From positions 1 through 59,155 of IMG/VR virus record IMGVR_UViG_3300023181_000373: a stretch of 59,155 nt of DNA; one strand, 5' to 3'. The translations under genes and the position numbers were made by a program. Below, piece after piece: positions 6,473-46,266 of the stretch; positions within the stretch are counted from its first letter, which is position 1, and every line of letters starts with the position of its first letter. The DNA comes from a virus. The notes beneath the pieces were generated by a model. It saw nothing but the letters and a program-made list of their open reading frames with translations. It was not told the origin of the DNA and did no database searches.

Positions 6473-9148
6473 TTAAAGTCCAAACCTGTGCATTATATTT
6501 AAGTCGTATTTAAACCGCCTAACCATTTCCGAATTACCTGCTTGATTCGGGTGTGTTCCATCATTGAATAATATGGCGTTTAATCGGGGGGCGGGGTGCG
6601 TGCTATCTATTGTAGGGAAATTTTGCAAAGCCGTACACAAATCAAACTTTGCGCCTTGCTTACCAAACGTATCTATCCTCGAATTTACAGCGATATGTAA
6701 ATCATTAGTTACGCAAGTAACATGATTAAGTATCAATTCAATACCATTGGTTGCACAGAAATCTACGATTGATTGGTACTGTGCAACAGTACCAATACCA
6801 TTTATACCTATTTTAACAGAAAGTATTCTAGGTTTAATGTATGCTATCTCATTAGTAAGCGCGGTAATACAGCCTGCTACAGTCTGCCCGGCCATAGACA
6901 CATTGCACGCATCATTGTTATAGTAGTCCATTAACTGAACAGCCCAATTTTTATAACATCTACCATTATCTTCAGTAATACTATCACCTGTAAAAGCGAT
7001 ATACGGTCTGAAAGGCCCATAAATTGAACATTGACCTACCGAAATAGATGTGCCTGACACCAACTCCATGCAATAGAAGGGCCTATGATTTCCTGCGCCT
7101 AAATCATAGTTTAAACCATTTAGATAATCAAACCGAACTTCTACCATAGCTAAAGACCTCGGATCTATTAGCCTGACAATGGTTAATGTAGCTCTTCGTT
7201 CTAACTCAACCCAATATTCTAACCCGGGAGTTATTGCGAAAGTTATAGCGGTAGTGCCAATAATCGTAGTGGTAGCACGCCTGTTGAGATTGATTATAAG
7301 ATTAGGGATATCTATTACACAGCTTGTGTCATATACAAAATTGGCATTAACAGTACCTACCTTAAGTATGCTATCTGCTTGTGGAAATATTGATTGCCTG
7401 AACAATCTCCGATCAGAGGTATACTGTCTATTTAATATAAGTTTCGAGCCAGCTGTGGTACTTGTCGCAAGCCCGTTAGATAGTACCCAAGCATTAAGAG
7501 TCCACTCAGTTGTTGGTTGTGAAAAGTTATATTCATAAAACTTAGTCGACCTGCCTAAATTTTTTGCAATTGATGTTAAAGTATCACTGGACTTTTTTGC
7601 AATATCTTTTACGCCTACCCAATCTTTACTAACCATATTAACAAAGGCTCCTTTTAGCGTGCTAGTACTTGAAAATACATCACCTGCAGTATTATAGTAG
7701 CAGTTAAACTGAGTTTGCAAACTGGAATCACTAGTATAGGCAATAGCCACACCTTTAAAAGCAAGATATTGCCCTTGATTTACAACTATAGGCCGCTCCA
7801 GAGTCTGAGTAACAATGTTTCCTGAATATGACCTAATTGATGGACTTACGTCAACAAGAGAAACAACAGTAACCACACCAGCTACTATCTCACAAATTTT
7901 AACTTGTGTAATTTCATCAATAATTGGACTGGTGGATTGAAAAATAAATTGATAAATACTTTTTGGTTTGTCGATCGGGACGCCATTCATAATAAATGAA
8001 GCATATCCTGAATAGACTGCATATGTACCACTCAGCCAATCAAATGGTATGATTGGCGTCAGGCTTTCCTTATAACCGGCATATAAGTCCTTTTGCATCA
8101 AAGTTAGATCGTCAATCTTACTGCTACTTACGTATGTAGCTGTAAAAAATAGCTTAAAAGTTTGAGTAGTAGTTATGGATGGACTATCACCTATAGCTAG
8201 AATAGAATTACCTAATGCAAATGCCGTATATCCAGTTACAGGCTGCTCGTACAACGATATTGTTGGAGAAAAGCCGATATATACATCAGAAGTATACACT
8301 TTATTGATCGTATAAGTATTATCACCTACAACAGTAGAGATCGGTATCTTGTCCAATAATGTAAATGAGTTGCCTACTTTGGAAAATAATTGTATGAATC
8401 CATTGGATGCGGTGCCCGCTTTTAAATATATGTACTTAGTTCTTTTATTGGCTGGTATAAATATATTTGCATCCACCCAATTTTGACCAGTAACAGCTGT
8501 AGTTGCTGTGCCGCTAGTTGTAATGGTCTGAACCACATCAAGGCCATCCAGTACTGGTTTAAATAATTCTGAAGGAACATACTTAGACAGGTCGCTAACA
8601 TTAGCCTTACTGAGTAAATCATCAACCCATACAGCAGATGTTCCTGGCACATCTGTAGATAATGCTGCTCCGCTTGAAATCCAGTATTTGCCTAAATAAG
8701 CTACGGCCATACCTAGACTATACGCTTGAGCAACCCATGATGGTATACGCGAAACTCCGGCTGTACCTGCTGCGCCTCGAATATCAACAGCGTTGGCAAT
8801 AACTGTAGAAAAACCAGTTGCAGTAACATAGCTATTGATATTCTCAGTGGGCTTTGTTCCGGCTCCACCTGTATAATCAACTAATTTCTGAACAATCCTG
8901 GTTCCATCTACAACATTAGCAAATACAGGCTGCCATCCTTTATCTCCCGGAAGTCCCCGTTCAGAATAAACCTGCCAGTAGGCAGTATTCGTGGGGAGCG
9001 TACCGGCAGGTACAGATCCAGATGTCGAAACAAGATATGACGCACCTAAATAACTAACAAAATCAAGATATTCATAATTTGCAGTAGCTGCATTCCATGT
9101 TCCCCGTGGAGTATTACCTACCTTCCCTAAATTTACTGTTGTTGCCAT
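6473..9148 (-). CDS. Tail fibre with C-terminal SGNH/GDSL esterase domain
   Basis: An 891-residue receptor-binding protein candidate. The N-terminus has two W..Y..G..V.YLG..Y-type sugar-binding modules (about residues 15-60 and 135-170) around a GLPGDKG and GAAGTAG collagen-like bit. Residues 719-891 are a complete SGNH hydrolase: nucleophile Ser723 in FTGDSIT, Gly754, Asn783 in GING, and the DGTHPN block with Asp863 and His866. Such domains usually remove acetyl groups from surface polysaccharide, so it probably trims the host capsule or O-antigen during adsorption. Confidence 0.85.
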   Translation of the reverse strand: MATTVNLGKVGNTPRGTWNAATANYEYLDFVSYLGASYLVSTSGSVPAGTLPTNTAYWQVYSERGLPGDKGWQPVFANVVDGTRIVQKLVDYTGGAGTKPTENINSYVTATGFSTVIANAVDIRGAAGTAGVSRIPSWVAQAYSLGMAVAYLGKYWISSGAALSTDVPGTSAVWVDDLLSKANVSDLSKYVPSELFKPVLDGLDVVQTITTSGTATTAVTGQNWVDANIFIPANKRTKYIYLKAGTASNGFIQLFSKVGNSFTLLDKIPISTVVGDNTYTINKVYTSDVYIGFSPTISLYEQPVTGYTAFALGNSILAIGDSPSITTTQTFKLFFTATYVSSSKIDDLTLMQKDLYAGYKESLTPIIPFDWLSGTYAVYSGYASFIMNGVPIDKPKSIYQFIFQSTSPIIDEITQVKICEIVAGVVTVVSLVDVSPSIRSYSGNIVTQTLERPIVVNQGQYLAFKGVAIAYTSDSSLQTQFNCYYNTAGDVFSSTSTLKGAFVNMVSKDWVGVKDIAKKSSDTLTSIAKNLGRSTKFYEYNFSQPTTEWTLNAWVLSNGLATSTTAGSKLILNRQYTSDRRLFRQSIFPQADSILKVGTVNANFVYDTSCVIDIPNLIINLNRRATTTIIGTTAITFAITPGLEYWVELERRATLTIVRLIDPRSLAMVEVRFDYLNGLNYDLGAGNHRPFYCMELVSGTSISVGQCSIYGPFRPYIAFTGDSITEDNGRCYKNWAVQLMDYYNNDACNVSMAGQTVAGCITALTNEIAYIKPRILSVKIGINGIGTVAQYQSIVDFCATNGIELILNHVTCVTNDLHIAVNSRIDTFGKQGAKFDLCTALQNFPTIDSTHPAPRLNAILFNDGTHPNQAGNSEMVRRFKYDLNIMHRFGL

Positions 9149-11158: not shown

Positions 11159-14100
11159 TTATCTTCCTACTCCCTGTTGCGCTTTCAATTGATCATCCAT
11201 CTTTCTGTTCATGGATACCAGTGAATTTTCAATGCTTTCTAATCGATTTGTGTTATCGGCTGTCCTGAGCGTATTAGCTGCAATCTTCTGACTTTCCAAA
11301 AGGTTTAATGAACTCATATTCAATATTTGAATCGCAGTCAAACCCATCGGTTTAAGGATGTTATTTGTTTCCAATTGCGTTAACCTGAAACCTGCAAAAT
11401 GCCCCGCTAATACATCTGCTTGTGTGGCTGTAATTGCTTGAATTCCGCTTTTAATTGTTCCTGATGAATCATCAGAACCTAATAAATTTGACCCAGTAAT
11501 CTTTTTAAACTCTTCAAATTTCTTTAAAGCATCGCCAGTAAGGGAGGTGAACAATCCATTTAAGGTGGCAATCTCATCAGCAGTTAATTCATCGCCACTC
11601 TGCGCGGCCTTATCAAATTCACTATAAAACTTCTCCATAGCACCAGCAAGCACTTTATTCTTAAATATGCTTAGCGCCGCGTCATCCATTGTCTGTTTAA
11701 AGAAATCTGCCAGATCCTGAGCAGACGTTTTACCAGAAGCAAACATCTCAGCGAGTGTATTCGTTAGATTGTCGGAAGTAGTACCCGTGAATAGTTCCGA
11801 TGTTTCTTTAGCCAAATCAGCAATAGCCTGTTCAGCATCGTATCCTTTCTGCTCTAATTCCTTCAACCGCTCAACTAAGGCCTTAGCATCACCTTCCAGT
11901 TTACCTTGTGCAAGTAGATTGCTTAACTCCTGAAAGCTTTTACCCTGGAGACTTCCATAGGTCTTGTCTACTTTTGCTTTACGGAACCAGGTACCATGCG
12001 TATAAGTCTCATTAGCGATGAACGACTGGCTTTGCAACTTCGCCATGATCTCTGCAGCTTCCTTCGTATATGCTTCGTTCTGCGACTTTCGTAATGCCAA
12101 CTCATCCCTGATACCTTGCAGTGCAACCTTATTATTCCTGACCGTTTGAAGTTGCCTTTCCTTCAACATATCCTGATATTCACGTTCGCCAGCAATTGCA
12201 TTGATATAGAAATCTTCAACCTCTTTACGAGCAGCAGCGTTCATCTCTTTTACTTTTTTTCCAATAGACAAGAGCCCTGTTACAGCAGTTACTGCTTTAG
12301 TTACTCCACCAACGATATCTCCACTTGCAAAAGAAGAAAAAGAACCTGCAGCATCTGATCCAACCTTAACTAGTTTGCCAATCGTATCTAATAAGTATCC
12401 CGCCTGTGTATCGTTACCACCTAATGATGTCGATAACTCATCGAAACTACTTGATAAGGCACCAAGGTCTTTAGATACTCCAGCAGCAAACTCAGAAGAT
12501 GTTCCTTTTAAATAACTAAAGTTTTCAGCAATCTTATCACCCCAAGAAGCAGCACCATCACCATTTTTATCGATCTCCTTAATCTTAATACCGATAGCCG
12601 CTAACCTGGTAATGATTGCTTTGTAATCATCTTCGCTTAAAATGATTTCATTACCATCTTCGTCCTTTACATGAAGCTGATCACTTACCCTCTTAAATTC
12701 ATCCTTTAAGTTTTGAAGATTACCTTTATCAATTCCAATTTTAAAAGATAATTTAAGTGCATCTAGGCTTTTCTGAACTTTGATAACTTGTTCTGCTGGT
12801 AAGGTGCCGGATCCTAGAACACCCTCTAATGCCCTGATCTGTTGAACCAATTGTTCTCTTGTCAGAATTAAAGCTTCTTCTGCCGCCCTTTTATACACAG
12901 CAGACTTCTGCAGCATAGCTGACGACAATTGGTCAATTTCATCCTGGTATGCCTTAGTACGTACAGCACGATTACTAGCATTAGCATCACCAGTCATTTT
13001 TTCAAAATCAGCATTAAACTTCTCAGTCGCTGTAGTTTTAGCCTGTTGATAAGTAGCATTGGTAAGCAAAAGAGCGTTATAATTATCCCTTTCTTTTTTC
13101 TGCTCTTCTTTGATACGATTTGCAACAATAATTAAACGCTCCTGCTCCGGACCAGATAGAAGCTTTCCATTTATAGAATTAGATACCCCCTTATAGATTA
13201 GCTTTGAGTACTCATCTTTCAGTGTATCCAGATAGTTTTTAGTACTTCCTAATTCAGTAGCAAACCTTTTCTTAGCAGCAGTTTCACCAATTTCTTTTTT
13301 TGCCTGTTCGAAGTCAGTATATAATACTTTTTGTTTATCCAGTTCAATAGTTAACTTGGCAGTATTCTGTCTATAAGTTACTGCCGCAAGTTCTTTCTTC
13401 TCACCTTCAGCCAAGCCGCCTGCATCTACACTTAATCCCTTTGCTTTATTTTTAACATCCTTATTAAATGCAGCCGCTTCAGCTCGCATCTTAATATACT
13501 TATCCTTTACGGACTCAATTTCCTGTTGATCAGCGGACAATTGTCTATCTGTACCGGCCTTTATAAGTTCAGCAATCTTTGTTTGTAAATCATTTCTCGC
13601 TTTTAAGGCTGAAGCATATTGATTCTTTTCTGTAATGCCAGAGTTGTCAATACCACCATTGGCAAGTTTTAACTCTTTTCGTAAGTCTTTTAATTTCTTA
13701 AGATTCGACTGATATTGTGCAGTGGTGTATCCCAGTTTCTTATTTGCATCTACAAGCGCTTTGATATCTGCCTTAATATCATCAGTAGTTCTACCTTCTC
13801 CTCCAGCGCCATCGAAAGTCTCCTGAACAGCACCATAGAGACCAGTATAAGATTTTCTAAGTTTATCAACAATGGATTGTTGCTGCAATAAAGGAGCCTG
13901 CAGATTTTTGAACCTGTCAACAAAAGGTTTAATTGCAGCTTCAGAATTCTTAGGATTTTTAGCGTATTCTTTAGCATAATTGGATTGCTCATACAACCGA
14001 TTCAACTTGCTTTGCTGAATATCAATCGCCTTTTTTAAAGAAGGTTCATCAATATTAGTATCAACAATCAACTTTGATTTGATCGTAGCAATACCTTCGA

Positions 14101-16294
14101 TCTTATCCCGGTTAGCAAGAATTGTAGATTGTCTTTCTTCAGCTTTGATAGCTGCAATAGCATCTGCATTTCTTTTTGCAGCAGCAGTTGGTCCAGATAA
14201 TATATCACCAAAACCACCACCAAAACCTTTAGCTAGCGTGCCAAATCTACTAATTATCGTATCCAGGTTCTTGATCAGTATTGTTGCAGCGTCGATGCCT
14301 CCTTTGAAAAACTGGCCAATGCTACTGTCAGGATTAGTAGTTACATTGGTAATGGAATTACCTAATTTATCCCATGATGCAGCAAGGTTGTTGTTTTTCT
14401 CTTCAAAGTTTTCTGATAAAATAGTATGCTCCTCATAAAGGTCATTACCTGTTTTAACTTTCTTACTTAAGCTTTCTTGATTTAACGCCAAAGCTGTTAT
14501 TGCATTGGTTGCAGCACCAACTTTAAAACCTAATGTACCCAGTCTATCGTTAAACTCAGTCGTAGTTGGATTGCCAGCTTTCAATCCTTTGAAGAATAAG
14601 TCCAGTGCCTGTTTAGAGTCTGTATTTACAAGTTTGGTGAACTTTTCTAACGTTAAAGTTGAATCAGCAAGCTGAGCAATCGCAAAGTACTTTTCTCTCT
14701 TTCCGGATAAGGAAGATATCAACCTACTAGTTGATGATGCTGCAATCTGAGCACTTACCCCTGCCTCTGACAAGACTGCACCATAAGCCAGCATAGTCGG
14801 CAATGATAACTTTGCTACCCGAGCTGCACCAGCAGTTCTTAAAGTGAAATCTTGAAGGAACTGAACGTTAATTGGTCCAGTGTGGGATATACCAAGAATA
14901 GCAGATCCTACCTTTTTAAGTGACTCTTCTAAACTAATATTCTCCTTTGAAGTCAGCTTATAGATTGAAATGATTTTTCCTAATGATCGGGCGACCGTCT
15001 CAGCACCACCTGGGAACTCCCTTTTTAAGACAACTGCTAATTGGTCAATAGTCTCGATATAACCTACAAGATCTTTCTTTGCAACCGCAAGCTGCCCCCC
15101 AACAAAACCAGTGTCTAACAGACCAGATAAATTGGTTCTTGTATCAACATCCTTAAGTGTAGTAACTAATACTCCTACCTCTTCCGTTGACTCCCTTGCG
15201 GTCCTTTTTATATCGGAAATACTATCAGACAATTCTAAGTTAGCATGGAATACACTTTTTATTGCTGCCACTGCTGCGTACAAAGTCAAGTATGAGGCCA
15301 CCATGCCAACAATCTGAGAACCTAAACCTGATAAAAATCCACCGGTCTTTTGGATAGCGTTTCCAAACTCATCAAAACCTTTTTTTCCAGCACTATTTAA
15401 CCTTTGTAATTCCTCCTGAGTCTGACCAATCTTTCTGTTTAGCGCAACGATGTTCTCAGCACCCTTAGCAGTATTTGGCTGTGCACGTACAGCATCAGAA
15501 TAAATCTTTAGCCTATTAGTAAGCGTCTCCTGATAGCCGATCGTCTTTTTGATCGCATTCCCTACCTCATCAAAACCGGCTTTTCCGGCATTTTTTGTTT
15601 TGACAATTGCTGCAGCTGTTTCCTCTAGTTTACGATTGTACTTAGCGATAAGTTCAGGATTGGTCATTGATGCTGCACCATTCTTATAAATTTTTTGCAG
15701 CTCAATCAATCTATTTAAAGTTCCAACAGGACGTTCAATGGAAACTTTCATTGCATTACCCAACTCGTCAAAACCATCTTTACCAATATTTTTGGTTCTG
15801 GTAATCTGAATAGCAACATCAGCAAGCTTTTGATTGTATTTAGCAATTGCATCAGTATTAGCCATCCCAACTAATCCAGCTTTGTAGATGTTTTGTAATT
15901 CTATTAGCCTGGCAAGTGTACCAACTGGTCTTTCGTAAGACGTTTTAATCGCATTACCAAGGTCATCAAAACCTATTTTACCAATATTGGTAAGCCTCTT
16001 TATTTCAGCTTCAAACTCTTGAATCTTTTGATTGTATTTTTCAATACCAGCAACAGACATAGCGGAATCTGCAGAGGCTTTAAACTCAGCCAATTTTGCT
16101 TTAAGCCTTTCAAGAATTCCATTATTAGCATCTGCAATTTTCTTAGCAAATCCTTCCACCTTTTCACCCTGAGCTGTGGCATTGCTTGCCAGCCCATTCA
16201 CCTTGGTGTTCATGGTATTTATCGTCGCATTGAAGCTCTTATCGTTTATCGTTGCATCAAAATGTAATCCACCGCCTGTTGTTGAAGTGCTCAT
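11159..16294 (-). CDS. Tail tape measure protein
   Basis: A 1711-residue, mostly helical protein by far the longest in the window, directly after the frameshifted chaperone, which is the standard siphovirus position. The N-terminus holds four units with the core GFD-(D/E)-x-GNA at residues 108, 174, 240 and 307, a period of 66-67 residues. A hydrophobic segment (about 318-345) follows, and another Gly/Ala-rich stretch lies near residues 1290-1345. By the usual rule of about 0.15 nm per residue the tail would be roughly 250 nm long. Confidence 0.92.
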   Translation of the reverse strand: MSTSTTGGGLHFDATINDKSFNATINTMNTKVNGLASNATAQGEKVEGFAKKIADANNGILERLKAKLAEFKASADSAMSVAGIEKYNQKIQEFEAEIKRLTNIGKIGFDDLGNAIKTSYERPVGTLARLIELQNIYKAGLVGMANTDAIAKYNQKLADVAIQITRTKNIGKDGFDELGNAMKVSIERPVGTLNRLIELQKIYKNGAASMTNPELIAKYNRKLEETAAAIVKTKNAGKAGFDEVGNAIKKTIGYQETLTNRLKIYSDAVRAQPNTAKGAENIVALNRKIGQTQEELQRLNSAGKKGFDEFGNAIQKTGGFLSGLGSQIVGMVASYLTLYAAVAAIKSVFHANLELSDSISDIKRTARESTEEVGVLVTTLKDVDTRTNLSGLLDTGFVGGQLAVAKKDLVGYIETIDQLAVVLKREFPGGAETVARSLGKIISIYKLTSKENISLEESLKKVGSAILGISHTGPINVQFLQDFTLRTAGAARVAKLSLPTMLAYGAVLSEAGVSAQIAASSTSRLISSLSGKREKYFAIAQLADSTLTLEKFTKLVNTDSKQALDLFFKGLKAGNPTTTEFNDRLGTLGFKVGAATNAITALALNQESLSKKVKTGNDLYEEHTILSENFEEKNNNLAASWDKLGNSITNVTTNPDSSIGQFFKGGIDAATILIKNLDTIISRFGTLAKGFGGGFGDILSGPTAAAKRNADAIAAIKAEERQSTILANRDKIEGIATIKSKLIVDTNIDEPSLKKAIDIQQSKLNRLYEQSNYAKEYAKNPKNSEAAIKPFVDRFKNLQAPLLQQQSIVDKLRKSYTGLYGAVQETFDGAGGEGRTTDDIKADIKALVDANKKLGYTTAQYQSNLKKLKDLRKELKLANGGIDNSGITEKNQYASALKARNDLQTKIAELIKAGTDRQLSADQQEIESVKDKYIKMRAEAAAFNKDVKNKAKGLSVDAGGLAEGEKKELAAVTYRQNTAKLTIELDKQKVLYTDFEQAKKEIGETAAKKRFATELGSTKNYLDTLKDEYSKLIYKGVSNSINGKLLSGPEQERLIIVANRIKEEQKKERDNYNALLLTNATYQQAKTTATEKFNADFEKMTGDANASNRAVRTKAYQDEIDQLSSAMLQKSAVYKRAAEEALILTREQLVQQIRALEGVLGSGTLPAEQVIKVQKSLDALKLSFKIGIDKGNLQNLKDEFKRVSDQLHVKDEDGNEIILSEDDYKAIITRLAAIGIKIKEIDKNGDGAASWGDKIAENFSYLKGTSSEFAAGVSKDLGALSSSFDELSTSLGGNDTQAGYLLDTIGKLVKVGSDAAGSFSSFASGDIVGGVTKAVTAVTGLLSIGKKVKEMNAAARKEVEDFYINAIAGEREYQDMLKERQLQTVRNNKVALQGIRDELALRKSQNEAYTKEAAEIMAKLQSQSFIANETYTHGTWFRKAKVDKTYGSLQGKSFQELSNLLAQGKLEGDAKALVERLKELEQKGYDAEQAIADLAKETSELFTGTTSDNLTNTLAEMFASGKTSAQDLADFFKQTMDDAALSIFKNKVLAGAMEKFYSEFDKAAQSGDELTADEIATLNGLFTSLTGDALKKFEEFKKITGSNLLGSDDSSGTIKSGIQAITATQADVLAGHFAGFRLTQLETNNILKPMGLTAIQILNMSSLNLLESQKIAANTLRTADNTNRLESIENSLVSMNRKMDDQLKAQQGVGR
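15340..15975 (-). repeat. Tandem 66-67-residue repeats in the tape measure gene
   Basis: Four in-frame copies, period 198-201 bases, each ending in a KxGFD(E)xGNAI-like motif and containing RPVGTLxRLIELQxIYKxG in the first two and degenerate forms in the others. They probably arose by duplication and may set tail length. Confidence 0.85.
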
Positions 16295-16297
16295 AGT

Positions 16298-17049
16298 TTA
16301 TAGCCCTAAATCTTTTCGTAATTCTGCTGCCTCGTCTTCAGGAGAAATGAAGACTTCATCATCTGGTTTATTCTTGCTTTTGGTTTCAGTATCAGGGATA
16401 GTTGCTAGCTCCATCATAAGATTCATCCAACTCATATCCCATAGTACTTCAGCTCTTGTACTGCCTGGAAAGAACTTTCTGTAAGCATTAATTAAACTCC
16501 AAGGGCTATTATCCCCCTCATCATTGCTCGGCCTCTCTATTCCTGTTCCATCGCAGGTGTCGCAACCTTTTCCGGCACACTCAGGACATTCGATCCTTTT
16601 ATTAAGAGAGTAGAGTTCATAAAACCCGGTATACCGGCCATGCTTAGTGAAGCATTTAATAACCTGTAAAACTGTGCATCAGGTAGCCATCTTAAATATT
16701 CTATTAGAGCCTTTGACGGTTCTTTTTTGTTATTCTGAATACAGAGTGCAACTACGTATAAATAATCATCTGTATGCTCTTTTATAGCCTTCCAGCATTT
16801 ATTTACATCTATTTTGCCATCAGTAAATATGTCCTGTGTTATTTTTAAGGCAATGGATGAAACCCTGTATCTGTTACCTACTAAAATTGGGCTGATTTCA
16901 AAAACTTTTACTTGTTTCATCAATCCAATTTTCATCAGTAGCTTTTCAAATACATTGGTTGGCTTGATAATTATAGTTACAGTTTCAGATTTATCAGTGA
17001 CAGCTTCACCGACCTTTATTAATGCTTCTAATTGTTCAATATCTGTCAT
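16298..17049 (-). CDS. Frameshifted tail assembly chaperone (G-T fusion type)
   Basis: Reading frame 0 from 17049 and shifting -1 at the slippery heptamer GGGTTTT (16627-16621, in zero frame G GGT TTT) gives a product of about 250 residues. The shifted part (16621-16298, 107 residues) has no stop, starts YELYSLNKRIE, and contains CPECAGKGCDTCDGTG, two DnaJ-type CxxCxGxG zinc units. It ends three bases before the tape measure ATG. Lambda gpG-gpGT is the known parallel. The shift itself is inferred. Confidence 0.85.
16537..17049 (-). CDS. Tail assembly chaperone, unshifted form
   Basis: A 170-residue zero-frame product between the tail tube gene and the tape measure gene, the position of lambda gpG. 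It begins TDIEQLEALIKVGEAV and is largely helical. Residues 144-170, after the slippery site, are used only when the ribosome does not shift. It is predicted to coat the tape measure during tail assembly, with the less abundant shifted form recruiting tail tube protein. Confidence 0.8.
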   Translation of the reverse strand: MTDIEQLEALIKVGEAVTDKSETVTIIIKPTNVFEKLLMKIGLMKQVKVFEISPILVGNRYRVSSIALKITQDIFTDGKIDVNKCWKAIKEHTDDYLYVVALCIQNNKKEPSKALIEYLRWLPDAQFYRLLNASLSMAGIPGFMNSTLLIKGSNVLSVPEKVATPAMEQE

Positions 17050-17080
17050 ATGAAAAGTAAAAGCCCCCGGGTTGGGGGCT
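17050..17080 (-). terminator. Hairpin between tail tube and chaperone genes
   Basis: Minus-strand AGCCCCC/GGGGGCT stem (17080-17062) with a five-base loop, followed by TTTTACTTTT. A partial terminator here would leave the abundant tail tube message above and lower chaperone and tape measure expression below. Confidence 0.7.
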
Positions 17081-17087
17081 GTAAAAA

Positions 17088-17591
17088 TTATACTCCGAAA
17101 TCGATCGACATTGCTGGTGTAGCTGCCTTATCTGGTGTTAATACTTTACCTGTCCAGTCAATTTGACCAAACTTAGTTTTATCAAAACCGAAGTTGGCGG
17201 TACCAATAAGCTTCATTTTAACGAAACTGAATTTTATACCAGTTTTAGTTTCTGAAACTACTGATTGGTTAACAGTTACTGATGCACCACCTACAGGGGG
17301 CGACCATACACCGTTAACAACAGTACCACCAAAGAACTTCTGCATAGTTAAAGCAGTAACTTTATAAGTGCTGGCTGTTAAAGTCCAAACTCGGCCTTTA
17401 GTTTCAATCTCATCAAGAATCTCATCTGACTCTTCTGTTTCGATTTCTGTTGTTTCGGGCACAGAGGATACTAATGATGCAGTTCCCTTTACGGTCTCAC
17501 CAAGAATCTCTGTTAAAACGGTGCCCATACCTCCGTCAAGAGCAGGATCACCCATTGTAATAGCTTTTAAGCCATATACTTTCTTTGCCAT
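17088..17591 (-). CDS. Major tail tube protein
   Basis: A 167-residue protein, beta-rich, without membrane helix or signal. It lies just before the frameshifted chaperone and tape measure, where the tail tube subunit belongs. The N-terminus has GDPALDGGMGTVLTE, and an acidic run TEIETEESDEILDEIE at about residues 48-63 could be a loop. The assignment rests on position and size more than on a clear motif. Confidence 0.7.
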   Translation of the reverse strand: MAKKVYGLKAITMGDPALDGGMGTVLTEILGETVKGTASLVSSVPETTEIETEESDEILDEIETKGRVWTLTASTYKVTALTMQKFFGGTVVNGVWSPPVGGASVTVNQSVVSETKTGIKFSFVKMKLIGTANFGFDKTKFGQIDWTGKVLTPDKAATPAMSIDFGV

Positions 17592-27071: not shown

Positions 27072-27123
27072 TCTTCACTGTTTTGCCGGCCATTAAATCC
27101 GGTATTTATATTAATCAAGTATG

Positions 27124-27194
27124 CATGAGTGAAAGGATTCGAACCTATATCAATAGTTTTGGAGACCACTATTCTACCTTTGAACTACACTCAC
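27124..27194 (-). tRNA. tRNA-Trp (CCA)
   Basis: Folds into a cloverleaf: acceptor GTGAGTG/CACTCAT, anticodon stem GTGGT/ACTAT with two wobble pairs, loop CTCCAAA with anticodon CCA, T-loop TTCGAAT. One T-stem mismatch and no encoded CCA. It is phage-borne, between the head block and a small gene. Confidence 0.85.
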
Positions 27195-27455: not shown

Positions 27456-27469
27456 ATAATATATATTTG

Positions 27470-27543
27470 TTGACCTGGAAGGACTCGAACCCTCAATCTT
27501 CTGAACCAAAATCAGACGTGCAAACCAATTACACCGCAGATCA
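27470..27543 (-). tRNA. tRNA-Gln (TTG)
   Basis: Complete cloverleaf: acceptor TGATCTG/CAGGTCA, D-stem GTGT/GCAC, anticodon stem TCTGA/TCAGA with loop TTTTGGT (anticodon TTG), T-arm GAGGG-TTCGAGT-CCTTC. No encoded CCA. Phage-borne. Confidence 0.95.
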
Positions 27544-41733: not shown

Positions 41734-41913
41734 TTAAAATAACTTTAACTGTTCTGGTTTAACTTTTGGTGGCTGGTAATTGTCTCGCTCCCATCTTTTT
41801 TTTAATTCTTCGGCCGGCAGGATCTTGCTAACCTGGTATTCTCTCTGGTGGATCAACTCTTGAATGTATTCGTAATCAAGTAATCCGGATGCCCACTTTT
41901 CAAAGGCGTTCAT
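41734..41913 (-). CDS. 59-residue protein ending in a sliding-clamp motif
   Basis: MNAFEKWASGLLDYEYIQEL..., a mainly helical, charged peptide with the extreme C-terminus KPEQLKLF. QLKLF matches the bacterial beta-clamp-binding pentapeptide (QL-x-LF). Its ATG overlaps the stop of the PP-loop gene (TAATG) and its stop is one base before the HTH gene ATG, so it is a genuine gene. It may recruit or block the host replisome clamp. Confidence 0.75.
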   Translation of the reverse strand: MNAFEKWASGLLDYEYIQELIHQREYQVSKILPAEELKKRWERDNYQPPKVKPEQLKLF

Positions 41914-42860
41914 TAGTATTTAGACATTACACAATGTCCGTGACTCATTTTATACTCAATAAGTTCCTCGTCAGTCATGTGACCAAATTCAGCAATAGCC
42001 TCCTGAAGTATTTCAGGTAGAAGCTTTTCACCTTTAACCCCTAAATTTTTACCGACCCTATGGCTCCACTTAGCAATTTTATTAGCTTCATAACGAACCC
42101 AATCATACCAATCAGCAGGATGAAATCTAAATAACCACAGTATTTCAATTTTACTTAGGTAAGGACAGAACTTGCAATTAGAAGGAAAGGGTAATTTAAA
42201 ATTTGTATGGTTTAAAATATGATCGTGAACATTCCACCGCGCAATTCCTTCCAAAACAAGCGGGTAAATCTTTTCTACCGCTAACCTAAACCATAATGGG
42301 ACCGGGTTTTTATGCTTTTTAAAGGCATCTGTTTGGTTTGCTTTAAGTTCCTTTTTGGTAGCTTTTTTAATCCTCTGCTCCTCGCCTGCGGCTATACCAA
42401 TGATCATTCTAATTCTACTATGGTCCTTAGCAAATTTCTTAATGAAATTCTTACCTTTTGGTTGAATGACTGAATTGTAACCGTAATATTTTTTAGCGAT
42501 ATAATGATCTATAAAATTATAGATAGGCTTAATTTTTAGATTATCTGTGCATGATCTCGGCCCCATTAATGACATTATCGAATCATTTTTAATAAACTGT
42601 CCCTCTAAGGTCTGCCACGTTGCAGGATGATATTCGCCATTAGTTAAAAAATAAAACTCAATTCCATATTGGTGGCAGAGGGCTTTGATATAATTCACGT
42701 GTTCATATGTGTGCTTATGTTCATTACCAGGGTCCGACTCTACTACAATGAAATGACCTTTAACATATTTTTCTCTAAACTCTTGATAAAGCATTATACG
42801 ATACAATATGTCAGTACTATCCTGTCCAGCTCCGAAAGATAAAACGGTTAATTGTTCCAT
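41913..42860 (-). CDS. PP-loop ATP pyrophosphatase, PAPS reductase/DndC-like
   Basis: A 315-residue protein. The PP-loop is SFGAGQDST (residues 8-16); Cys104 in PRSCTDNLKIKP and the Cys229/Cys232 pair (CKFC) match the PAPS reductase/DndC superfamily, which activates or transfers sulfur using ATP. Its gene starts at the very last base of the ThiF gene (overlap), directly below the PRTRC cassette, suggesting that the two systems act together. Confidence 0.8.
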   Translation of the reverse strand: MEQLTVLSFGAGQDSTDILYRIMLYQEFREKYVKGHFIVVESDPGNEHKHTYEHVNYIKALCHQYGIEFYFLTNGEYHPATWQTLEGQFIKNDSIMSLMGPRSCTDNLKIKPIYNFIDHYIAKKYYGYNSVIQPKGKNFIKKFAKDHSRIRMIIGIAAGEEQRIKKATKKELKANQTDAFKKHKNPVPLWFRLAVEKIYPLVLEGIARWNVHDHILNHTNFKLPFPSNCKFCPYLSKIEILWLFRFHPADWYDWVRYEANKIAKWSHRVGKNLGVKGEKLLPEILQEAIAEFGHMTDEELIEYKMSHGHCVMSKY

Positions 42861-43597
42861 TATGTAGCCTCCATTTCTGCAACTTTTATAGGACGAACCT
42901 GCATTGTGGTAAGATTCAGATAAAGTCCATGGTAATCAATCCTTCCATCAGTAATTAACTTCCAAAGTAAGTTGCATCCTAAATTTGCCAAAGTAGAATT
43001 AATAAATAAATCCTGCTTACCTAACGCTTCCGCGAGTGAACAGCTGGGCCCTTGATTCTTCTCTTTAATTTTTTTTAAATCAAAAAGTTGAGTAACACTT
43101 TTAAGTTCTTCAGAGAACAGTGTTCCAAGAACTACCTGGCCAGTCTTTTGAGAATTTCCAAAATCCAACCAGTAGAACCGCTTACCGTATTCGTAACCAC
43201 CAGTATTTGTATATATGCCCTTTCCAATTTCAATTCTTGTTTTTGCAGTATCTACACAGGTGATGAGGATGTTTGCATGATTGAGTGTATCAAACTTAGC
43301 ATTGATCGCCTCCCATTCAAAACCGAAAAACCTGTTTATTCTGGTAATAGATATGATTGCTTTATTCAATCCTAAATCACCTGGAGAATACAACTGTCTG
43401 CCTACATTAGCCATACTTACGGTATCATGATCAAAGGCGCGAACATGAATACCGGGATGACCAAGTGCAACAAGTCCAGTGTGAATTCTGGCTAAAGCAC
43501 TGAGTACCTGAGAACCTGTACCACCTACACCGACCAGATCTACCGTAATCTTATGTGTAGGATTTAAAAGATAATTATGTGTCTTATGATATGCCAT
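42860..43597 (-). CDS. PRTRC ThiF family protein (E1-like)
   Basis: A 245-residue E1/ThiF-type enzyme. The adenylate-binding motif VGVGGTG is at residues 22-28; FDHDTVSMANVGRQLY (55-70) has the Asp and the N-x-x-RQ; Lys79 and CVD (114-116) complete the ATP site. Cys186 in GPSCSLAEAL is the candidate thioester cysteine. PRTRC ThiF proteins are known from mobile elements; this one closes the E-C-F-B-ThiF row. Confidence 0.88.
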   Translation of the reverse strand: MAYHKTHNYLLNPTHKITVDLVGVGGTGSQVLSALARIHTGLVALGHPGIHVRAFDHDTVSMANVGRQLYSPGDLGLNKAIISITRINRFFGFEWEAINAKFDTLNHANILITCVDTAKTRIEIGKGIYTNTGGYEYGKRFYWLDFGNSQKTGQVVLGTLFSEELKSVTQLFDLKKIKEKNQGPSCSLAEALGKQDLFINSTLANLGCNLLWKLITDGRIDYHGLYLNLTTMQVRPIKVAEMEAT

Positions 43598-44304
43598 TAT
43601 AAGATAGATTTAAGGGATATTTTTACCTGATGGGAAACCAGTTCATTGATACTGCTCCATTTAAGCGATGGATTTTGGATCATCCTCTTCCATACTAGGT
43701 TACCGTTTGACTTGCAGAAATTACCACCGTGCATAGCTGAGAATTCTGATAGCCAGAACATGTCCTCCCAGTACTTCATGATGTTGCTGAATGATAAAAT
43801 ATCAGGCTTCTTAACTTTCGCATTACCAAGGCACACTGATTCAGTGGTTACATTATAGTATGGCGCTCTGTATAATTGCGTATCTTCTGTCGGTCGCTTA
43901 TTACTCTTTAATGCAAACACTTTTAATCCTGATTTTGTAGCAGAATAAACAGTTGCTGGTACGTAAGCAAGTCCAGAATCCATTTCTAATGAAGATGAGA
44001 AATGAATCGTCCTCTGCTCTTCTTTGCGGTACCAAACCAAACTGTACTCGCCTGACCCTTCCGATTCACCTTTCAATAAATTCTCCGGAATATATCCACT
44101 TAACCTAACTTTACCAGCATTATTATCAAAAATTGAATTGGCAATTGCTTCAAGGGTTTTTACCTTCAGTGGCCTGCCCTCTAGCATCTGTCCATCTTTA
44201 TTAATCGGATGGCTTTCTAAATAAAAATCATCATGTGATTTATAAGCGATCATAGCCATGAATGGCACGAAGCTTCCATTAAGCTGTTCTGATACTTTAT
44301 TCAT
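43597..44304 (-). CDS. PRTRC system protein B (E2-like)
   Basis: A 235-residue protein. APYYNVTTESVCLGNA (residues 148-162) resembles the E2 active site pattern with Asn151 and candidate catalytic Cys158, followed by the helical SFSNIMKYWEDMFW. Earlier segments (LEAIANSIFD, SLEMDSGLAYVPATVYS) complete the E2-like fold. It would accept a ubiquitin-like protein from ThiF. It overlaps gene F by eight bases. Confidence 0.82.
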   Translation of the reverse strand: MNKVSEQLNGSFVPFMAMIAYKSHDDFYLESHPINKDGQMLEGRPLKVKTLEAIANSIFDNNAGKVRLSGYIPENLLKGESEGSGEYSLVWYRKEEQRTIHFSSSLEMDSGLAYVPATVYSATKSGLKVFALKSNKRPTEDTQLYRAPYYNVTTESVCLGNAKVKKPDILSFSNIMKYWEDMFWLSEFSAMHGGNFCKSNGNLVWKRMIQNPSLKWSSINELVSHQVKISLKSIL

Positions 44305-45424
44305 TGTTGTAAATTTTACGCACTAAATCGCATGCATGTTCAAAGAATTTATCTATTTTAGGTAACCAAGTATCTCGTTTAAATACCGTAGTAGTTTCCT
44401 TGTTGACCATCAGCCATGCATAGGGAACATCTACTGACTCCTGAGCACCAGAATCTATCAGTTCTCCAAGTTCAATAGCAACACCATCAGAATCATCCCA
44501 CAGTATTGTAAACTGCTGCTCAAAATGAAGTCCCTCGCCATTGTATTCTGTTCCTTCATCGGGATTATAATAGTAGTTCACTATTGATTTTCGATCTGGA
44601 TCAATACATAACTGGCAACCTTCGATCATCAAATCAATGATCAAGTGATCGGATTCCAAGCTTTTTATCTCTTCAATTAGTTCATCAGGTTCCCAGTCAC
44701 ATGATTGGTTGATACTATTTTCAAAGGCTGCAGCATCACCAGATTTGTAAACTTCTAAGCAATCTTCTATCCTTTTGATATTGTCAGTAAACCACTCAGC
44801 ATCTTCTGATCCTTCTGATTCGTCGGTAAGATTTAGAATTTGCTCTTCCAAAAAATCCTGCGCATACATAGCATCACCTTGATACCATAAATCTACACCA
44901 GTTTTTTTAGAGAACATTTTCAGGAATGACATGAAGGTAATCAGCAGATCTTCGTTTGAATCTATATTTTTGATGATGGTCTTCACTTCAAATATATGCC
45001 ATTGCTCATCCCAATCACATGCTTTATAAATCACAAAGAAATAATCTCCTTTCTCAGTACGGTCAATTTGCCATTGGCAGTCCTGATCAACAAGAAGGGA
45101 AAACTCTTCTTTAATTCTATCGAACAGGCAGGAAGATCCTAAAGGCAACGTATGAATACTGTACTGGTAAGGCTTACTATTTACTATCTGATAGTAATTA
45201 CTTAGTGCATCGAATAACTGCTGATGAAGAGTTTGATCCTTTAAGATAATATCAACTGCAGGTTTGCTTTGAAATATTACGGAATTAAATTGACCCAGAA
45301 TGCTGGGAGCAGCTTTCTTTCTTGCTGCTCCTCGTTTGCATAAAGGTTTTTGTTTCTTATTTCCATTTCGAATGCCAGGCCTAACTTCTTGTAAAACTGT
45401 GGCTCCTGTAATTTGCGCTTGCAT
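44297..45424 (-). CDS. PRTRC system protein F candidate
   Basis: A 375-residue protein in the F position (between C and B). After a Lys-rich start it holds a beta-rich domain with ADWDEQWHIFEVKTIIKN and later acidic helices with several Cys-W pairs (CDWE, CQLC). PRTRC F has no known function. I name it by position and overall length because its sequence is not diagnostic by eye. Confidence 0.7.
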   Translation of the reverse strand: MQAQITGATVLQEVRPGIRNGNKKQKPLCKRGAARKKAAPSILGQFNSVIFQSKPAVDIILKDQTLHQQLFDALSNYYQIVNSKPYQYSIHTLPLGSSCLFDRIKEEFSLLVDQDCQWQIDRTEKGDYFFVIYKACDWDEQWHIFEVKTIIKNIDSNEDLLITFMSFLKMFSKKTGVDLWYQGDAMYAQDFLEEQILNLTDESEGSEDAEWFTDNIKRIEDCLEVYKSGDAAAFENSINQSCDWEPDELIEEIKSLESDHLIIDLMIEGCQLCIDPDRKSIVNYYYNPDEGTEYNGEGLHFEQQFTILWDDSDGVAIELGELIDSGAQESVDVPYAWLMVNKETTTVFKRDTWLPKIDKFFEHACDLVRKIYNNE

Positions 45425-45430
45425 GGCCGT

Positions 45431-45652
45431 TTAACCTTTGGTTCCGACTGTTGTTTTGAACTCATAAACTGCTTCATCATCTTTCAGAAATGGACCACTG
45501 ACCGTTGCTGTAGTCAGCTCCGGATAATTGTTTGAATAGAAAACCATCACTTCGTCTGGACTAAAAGCATTATTTGGATCTTCCAAAATCTGATCTTTAC
45601 CGTTTAATTTTGCTTTGAAGGTTCTTACTACACCTTGAATATTTAATGCCAT
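45431..45652 (-). CDS. PRTRC system protein C (ubiquitin-like)
   Basis: A 73-residue protein with a beta-grasp pattern: strand MALNIQGVVRTFKAKL, SPDEVMVFYSNNYPELTTATVSGP, then VYEFKTTVGTKG. It ends with a free C-terminal Gly73, and in this family the C-terminus is where activation by ThiF would occur. PELTTATV and GTKG are typical of PRTRC C. It lies one base from the start of the F gene region and shares its ATG overlap with E. Confidence 0.85.
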   Translation of the reverse strand: MALNIQGVVRTFKAKLNGKDQILEDPNNAFSPDEVMVFYSNNYPELTTATVSGPFLKDDEAVYEFKTTVGTKG

Positions 45653-46266
45653 TATGCTTCCTCCTCTTCGTTATAGTTATTTTCCTCAGTTAATTCTCCT
45701 TCTGGTTGATCATCTTTAAAATCAGCCAGGTAATCAGTTGTATCCGCTTCCTCGGCCACTGCACTGAATATGCTTCCCTGAGATAATTTGGCGACCATTT
45801 CTTTGATCATCTTATCAACCGATTCTGGTTTATCAGAAAAGTCTTTAGCTTGCTTAAGTACTGCTACTGCTTCTTTAATCTTGTTATCCTTTTTAAAGGC
45901 ATCAAATTTTGTCATCAATGCAGCGTATTTTTTAAGCTTAGCCTCTTTTTCCTTCTTATCCTGTTCAGCCTTCTTCTTTTCAACCTCATTCTCTTTTGCT
46001 AACTTAGAAGCGCCTGCTTCGAACGTAGCAATGTTTGACATGATACCAGTTGCTGTAGTTATTGGCTGATGGATAATTGAAAGAAATTCCTCATCAAGTT
46101 CAGCAGGGGATCCAGTGATCAGAATAGGTTTGATATTGGCTATGGCGCCATCCTTGATTTCCGCTTTTGGCATGATCATCACTGTCAGCTGATCACCTTT
46201 CTTTTTAATGTTTAATTGCAGTTCAGTGTCGTTAAGCATTTCGCTTATGGAATTGAAAAAATTCAT
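45652..46266 (-). CDS. PRTRC system protein E
   Basis: A 204-residue protein whose first 75 residues (LNIKKKGDQLTVMIMPKAEI..., ILITGSPAELDEEFL) are the conserved PRTRC E domain, followed by a Lys/Glu coiled-coil stretch (about 85-130) and an acidic C-terminus (QPEGELTEENNYNEEEEA). Its stop overlaps the start of protein C (ATG). Function in PRTRC is unknown; the acidic tail could bind a partner. Confidence 0.85.
   Translation of the reverse strand: MNFFNSISEMLNDTELQLNIKKKGDQLTVMIMPKAEIKDGAIANIKPILITGSPAELDEEFLSIIHQPITTATGIMSNIATFEAGASKLAKENEVEKKKAEQDKKEKEAKLKKYAALMTKFDAFKKDNKIKEAVAVLKQAKDFSDKPESVDKMIKEMVAKLSQGSIFSAVAEEADTTDYLADFKDDQPEGELTEENNYNEEEEA

Follow-up and report, generated by a model that had tools for sequence, protein, structure and literature searches.

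Two described gene systems come closest to the locus reported here. Operon type 6d of Iyer, Burroughs and Aravind (2006, PMC1779556) combines an E1-like enzyme, a small ubiquitin-like protein (Ubl) with a C-terminal glycine, a largely helical protein and an E2-like protein with a conserved cysteine and a downstream histidine, with a JAB gene that is reported always to adjoin the E1 or to be fused to it. The PRTRC system, modelled in NCBIfam and found on plasmids, has no settled function. We evaluated a cassette of five genes (E, C, F, B and ThiF) in IMG/VR virus record IMGVR_UViG_3300023181_000373, a stretch of 59,155 bases analysed at its full length and hereafter called the window. With type 6d the cassette shares an E1-like protein, a small Gly-ended Ubl, a largely helical protein and the E2-like cysteine, but JAB is absent from the window and from the Bacteroidota loci examined, and the downstream histidine is Ala190 in the window. 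With PRTRC it shares matches of E, C, B and ThiF to the family models and the order E-C-F-B-ThiF, as on Parabacteroides and Tunicatimonas plasmids, whereas it is without A (the JAB protein) and ParB, its F falls outside the model, and it sits in a siphophage rather than on a plasmid. The system is a ParB-less, JAB-less PRTRC variant, incomplete as a PRTRC system. Its motifs suggest ubiquitin-like conjugation, and the neighbourhoods of its relatives point to the proteins of DNA replication and modification as candidate targets.

An intact ubiquitin-like cassette in a temperate siphophage

The window carries packaging and structural genes (terminase, portal, major head, minor head, tape-measure) together with RecT, an exonuclease VIII-like gene, a repressor and, at its right end, an integrase, and is therefore a temperate siphophage. 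It probably infects a member of Bacteroidota; in a quick ThiF tree the nearest relative of the window ThiF lies in Sphingobacterium mizutaii, and a search for terminase relatives gave a single 4.2-kb fragment.

Within this phage, five contiguous minus-strand genes span 42860-46266 (Table 1), and comparison with family models confirmed E, C, B and ThiF of the ubiquitin-like gene set. Membership was clear for E (TIGR03741, 70.8 bits against a cut-off of 37.95), C (TIGR03738, 66.6 against 45.95; Prok_Ub PF14454, 86.8 bits), B (PF14460, 112 against 25) and ThiF (TIGR03736, 244.6 against 144.75); B also matched TIGR03737 significantly (2.5e-28), although its 99 bits fall short of that model's cut-off, 131. 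The nearest chain to ThiF in the PDB is UBA5 (E 0.009), and a PHROGs search assigned none of B, C, E and F to a family. TAATG overlaps join E to C, B to ThiF, ThiF to the PP-loop gene that follows it without a break, and the PP-loop gene to another small gene beyond; F and B meet in a ATGAATAA overlap, and 6 nucleotides (nt) separate C from F. All five frames are intact and coupled, with a guanine-plus-cytosine (GC) content of 0.379 against 0.385 for the phage. The F-position protein is linked to proteobacterial PRTRC_F by a weak profile match only (hhalign probability 46, E 2e-4), while a profile seeded with the window protein found matches in 17 loci; its AlphaFold model (mean predicted local distance difference test, pLDDT, 86.9) gave no PDB match at E <= 0.001 and low TM-scores, a search that was uninformative.

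A search with a ThiF alignment gave 518 confirmed matches in genomes and 95 in viral contigs, 80 being kept from each; a single-protein ThiF query confirmed nothing in the viral contigs. Across the kept genome and viral loci plus plasmids and phages, the E1 cysteine Cys186 was conserved in 168 of 168 ThiF relatives, and Asn151 and Cys158 of B in 164 of 164. Loss of either cysteine among relatives had been named beforehand as grounds for giving up the reading, and both proved invariant. Among 58 aligned B sequences, 28 place the cysteine eight residues after the asparagine, and all 28 have glycine at Asn+5. The active-site line of eukaryotic E2 enzymes is HPN-x4-G-x2-C, with the same spacing as these eight-residue members. 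From its Pfam E2 family and this active-site line, B appears to be E2-like.

The first-pass annotation had described a contiguous, coupled PRTRC cassette at 41913-46266 inside a prophage, with a VGVGGTG site and Cys186 in ThiF, Asn151 and Cys158 in B, and a 73-residue C ending in glycine. These motifs, and the contiguity and coupling of E, C, B and ThiF, all stand. The F gene keeps its position but does not match the PRTRC_F model; the span shortens to 42860-46266, the lower start having taken in the backbone PP-loop gene; and what was called a prophage is a temperate phage in a virus record, with no host flank shown.

Table 1. Coordinates of the cassette, its catalytic codons and other features of the window
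Feature	Position	Strand	Evidence or note
SNF2-type helicase, one slot edge, phage backbone	46282..47973	-	PF00176 1.3e-26; 15 nt upstream of E
PRTRC protein E, 204 residues, first cassette gene, acidic C-terminus	45652..46266	-	PF19556 3.6e-41, TIGR03741 8.2e-20
PRTRC protein C, ubiquitin-like, 73 residues, end ...VGTKG	45431..45652	-	PF14454 8.6e-25, TIGR03738 1.6e-18
Codon of terminal Gly73 of C	45434-45436	-	
F-position protein, 375 residues, positional counterpart of PRTRC F	44297..45424	-	no NCBIfam/Pfam family match
PRTRC protein B, Prok-E2_D, 235 residues	43597..44304	-	PF14460 2.6e-32
Codon of Asn151 of B	43852-43854	-	
Codon of Cys158 of B	43831-43833	-	
PRTRC ThiF, E1-like, 245 residues, GxGGxG nucleotide motif	42860..43597	-	TIGR03736 9.2e-73, PF00899 5e-11
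Codon of Cys186 of ThiF	43040-43042	-	
PP-loop/PAPS-reductase-like gene, other slot edge	41913..42860	-	phrog_424 4e-20; overlaps ThiF stop codon
tRNA-Trp (cca)	27123-27194	-	beside terminase region
tRNA-Gln (ttg)	27469-27543	-	beside terminase region

Phage residence extends beyond the window. Of the 46 further virus records that bear a cassette, no fewer than 24 gave a clear terminase or portal match in one or more of four family searches, weak matches being disregarded. Among deposited phage records, only two gave ThiF matches covering 80% or more of the protein; the stronger match is Burkholderia phage BgVeeders33 (OK665841), whose annotation makes no mention of PRTRC. In the quick ThiF tree, viral and non-viral cassettes are mixed: the viral label changes nine times, and well-supported branches force three or more of these changes.

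JAB, ParB and the tail of the ubiquitin-like protein

Profile searches of the window record for PRTRC_A (TIGR03735), Prok-JAB (PF14464) and ParB_N (PF02195) returned nothing, in agreement with the first-pass annotation, which had gone on to read the missing protease as the mark of a special phage variant that could modify proteins without removal. That part of its interpretation was not supported, while the E1/E2/Ubl set in a phage held. The same order without A or ParB occurs on annotated Parabacteroides and Tunicatimonas plasmids and in chromosomal Bacteroidota loci; A was nearby in none of the 80 kept genome loci, and 43 of the 47 virus records searched in full (window counted in) were without it; ParB is rare in Bacteroidota loci, being near one of the 80 genome loci. 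Having neither JAB nor ParB is the usual Bacteroidota layout and no phage peculiarity. On the Tunicatimonas plasmid (L005), a second ubiquitin-like locus (12975-17259; a multiubiquitin domain protein and a ThiF-family gene) lies near the PRTRC cassette, as do umuD and a Y-family polymerase gene.

Plasmids are a common home of these genes (ThiF was found in 378 plasmid records), and PRTRC ParB, present on many proteobacterial plasmids, has been interpreted as serving partition (PMC7466150). Both observations favour a maintenance module that phages borrowed from plasmids, by which mobile DNA would be kept or copied through conjugation or through a non-covalent C-ThiF-B complex. We consider this quite improbable for the window phage, where ParB is missing as it is from all but one of the 80 genome loci, and phages bearing an integrase need no partition.

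We then evaluated the tail of C against the presence of A with a script, with related loci in the counts not independent of one another: an extended C accompanied A in 25 loci and stood without it in none, whereas an unextended C accompanied A in 7 and stood without it in 135. Every JAB-less C (135/135) stops at the conserved ...KG, and unextended C proteins end in glycine in 140 of 142 cases and in alanine in the other 2. Loci with both an extended C and JAB are those of Burkholderia-type phages and of plasmids in, for example, Polaromonas, Rhodoferax, Rhodanobacter and Manganitrophus. A strict rule that A implies an extended C was rejected on account of the seven A-bearing loci with an unextended one; the one-way rule holds. 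It fits a role of A as maturase of the extended C, and may indicate what the protease is for in systems that have one. The window C is predicted to need no maturation, because JAB-less C proteins end at ...KG.

Among the Burkholderia-type phages (L002, L144, L146, L147, L149-L161, L163-L166), the PRTRC set is fuller and includes A, with a variable C tail after GTKG. In L162, C and ThiF are in the cassette and B was not recognised by profile.

The genomic slot and recurrent neighbours

The cassette occupies a slot between an SNF2-type helicase and the PP-loop gene. The order common to closer helicase relatives is RecT, exonuclease, helicase, slot and then PP-loop or replication genes, and none of the 32 virus loci whose helicases are related to that of the window (42-84%) has cassette genes. 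Where the cassette is missing, the slot holds SNF2-N6/N4 plus C5 methylase, D12 plus C5 methylase, C5 methylase, or PcfJ. In the window phage the cassette stands in this one slot instead of a PcfJ module or one for DNA modification.

Methyltransferases in that slot plausibly serve restriction protection, and conjugation with E1- and E2-type parts is known from anti-phage defence (PMC10097602; Bil and Bub are named in PMC13373217), which together give some ground to a role in counter-defence or superinfection exclusion, the same chemistry placing C on host defence proteins or on structural proteins of competing phages, comparable to the tagging of incoming phage by Bil. We hold this to be rather unlikely, though far from negligible: no PADLOC model matched B, C, E or F, and ThiF gave a weak match as E1-E2, and the neighbours in phages, chromosomes and plasmids are genes of replication, topology and partition, not of defence.

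The PP-loop gene belongs to the backbone, because it stands beside methylases in the cassette-less loci L183 and L184 (53-55% identity to that of the window); it was rejected as a cassette partner, with a related gene near only five other cassette loci. The same facts bear on a sulfur relay, in which ThiF would form a thiocarboxylate on C to feed the adjoining PP-loop enzyme for base or DNA thiolation. To this scheme we give very little credence, even with the PP-loop gene overlapping ThiF and with PAPS-reductase-family genes annotated on the downstream side of ThiF, no more than a few kb away, on plasmids L170, L176 and L181 (farther in L167), since an E2-like protein with an invariant cysteine has no role in known sulfur relays.

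Turning to relatives outside the slot, we found a DNA polymerase III beta-clamp gene directly upstream of E in 23 loci, which are 21 distinct elements, two genome loci duplicating virus records. Gaps from clamp to E run from -10 to 69 nt in 22 loci (one 10-nt overlap), with L108, a weaker match, at 109 nt; divergent clamps were confirmed by Pfam. In the element nearest to the window by ThiF (L009, the same element as L089), the clamp gene lies inside the cassette, between C and F (L009:5335-6429). When clamps from loci with a cassette and from loci lacking one were placed on a quick tree, the adjacency label had to change at least five times across well-supported branches. A clamp exclusive to cassette phages was rejected, 67 of 81 judgeable clamp loci being free of the cassette.

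PcfJ recurs as an occupant of the cassette's place. In L253 the cassette follows the clamp. L265 has a clamp that barely differs from those of L010 and L091, two loci of the L253 type, but a PcfJ-like gene (7863-8864) in the cassette's place; such genes also follow a clamp or helicase at L215:2412-3695 and L185:10065-11399. PcfJ occurs in 0 of 182 cassette loci, versus 17 of 79 loci in the first clamp-seeded set, a few of them cassette-bearing, and 8 of the 32 related through the helicase. In four loci (L031:4825-6447, L092:5310-6818, L105:6156-7613, L126:5108-7237) E itself carries, as a C-terminal fusion, an N6-methylase-like domain that bears an NPPF motif, and a topoisomerase family lies upstream of the cassette in 40 chromosomal loci (one representative scanned). 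By clamp, PcfJ, fusion and topoisomerase contexts, the cassette is grouped with genes of DNA replication, topology and modification. In L138 a zinc-ribbon-like sequence precedes E.

Predicted relay, candidate targets and known counterparts

From the conserved residues we propose that ThiF would adenylate the C-terminal glycine of C and then hold C as a thioester on Cys186, that C would move from there to Cys158 of B, and that B would attach it to lysines of targets, with E and F most likely acting as adaptors that bring the relay to the target. C would be made already mature (end ...TKG), such that no JAB protease would be needed for its activation. Taken alone, conjugation by such a cysteine relay is likely. 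Standard diGly proteomics would miss C conjugates, because trypsin would cut ...TKG after the lysine and leave a single glycine.

With clamps, DNA methylases and topoisomerases recurring nearby, DNA replication or modification becomes a likelier target than "phage or host proteins" at large. Candidate targets would be proteins that act on the phage's DNA, among them the sliding clamp, polymerase, helicase and methylase, and their modification may benefit the phage. Of the readings that the neighbourhoods allow, a target in the DNA machinery has the best support, and it is a prediction for the window phage. The whole model, cysteine-relay conjugation of C onto phage DNA replication or modification proteins, is tentative and falls a little short of an even chance, because the target is drawn from the neighbourhoods of relatives and the window phage has no clamp. 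A narrower version is unlikely. In it, C would be joined to a sliding clamp of phage or host origin, or to an enzyme bound to the clamp, with the effect of switching polymerases or of protecting the phage's DNA.

Several observations weigh against the model. Window B has its cysteine seven residues, not eight, after the asparagine, and has Ala190 at a near-invariant histidine column (His in 53 of 58 aligned B; window His192 is two residues beyond), a column that is probably the residue proposed by Iyer and colleagues near the type 6d E2 active site (PMC1779556). Foldseek with the AlphaFold model of B (pLDDT 92.4) gave no PDB match at E <= 0.001 and low TM-scores, an outcome uninformative rather than negative, and the E2 fold of B therefore rests on sequence. 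The window lacks a clamp and its E is not fused; phage replication genes cluster, so that some clamp adjacency is expected; and the 67 of 81 clamp loci without a cassette gene, from two clamp-seeded scans, mean that the clamp is no universal partner of the cassette. The missing histidine and shorter spacing would also suit a passenger without current function in the phage, a reading that we find very improbable given the intact and coupled frames, the GC content close to that of the phage and the retained catalytic residues.

What is new here is the residence of the cassette in phages with packaging genes, its adjacency to clamps, the E-methylase fusions and the slot swap. To a system of unsettled function, the phage loci add a repeated operon of clamp, E (sometimes as a DNA methylase fusion), Ubl, E2 and E1, and the model, if true, would link ubiquitin-like conjugation in bacteria with DNA replication, beyond defence alone. 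BgVeeders33 and similar IMG/VR records likewise bear E, C, F, B and ThiF in phages, but theirs add A (JAB) and a C-terminal extension on C. Bil, Bub and CBASS Cap2 exemplify bacterial conjugation by an E1-like enzyme with E2-like parts (PMC10097602; PMC13373217), whereas the window families differ from theirs, no CD-NTase is present, and no anti-phage model matched B, C, E or F. The ubiquitination and SUMOylation of eukaryotic PCNA offers a likeness in working rather than in membership. The clamp link here is genetic only, the window phage being without a clamp, and a RING domain was not found; a prokaryotic counterpart of PCNA modification, arisen on mobile elements, is an unlikely outcome of the comparison. 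The likeness lies in a Ubl relay that is genetically tied to the clamp in related phages, sometimes with an SNF2-type helicase nearby.

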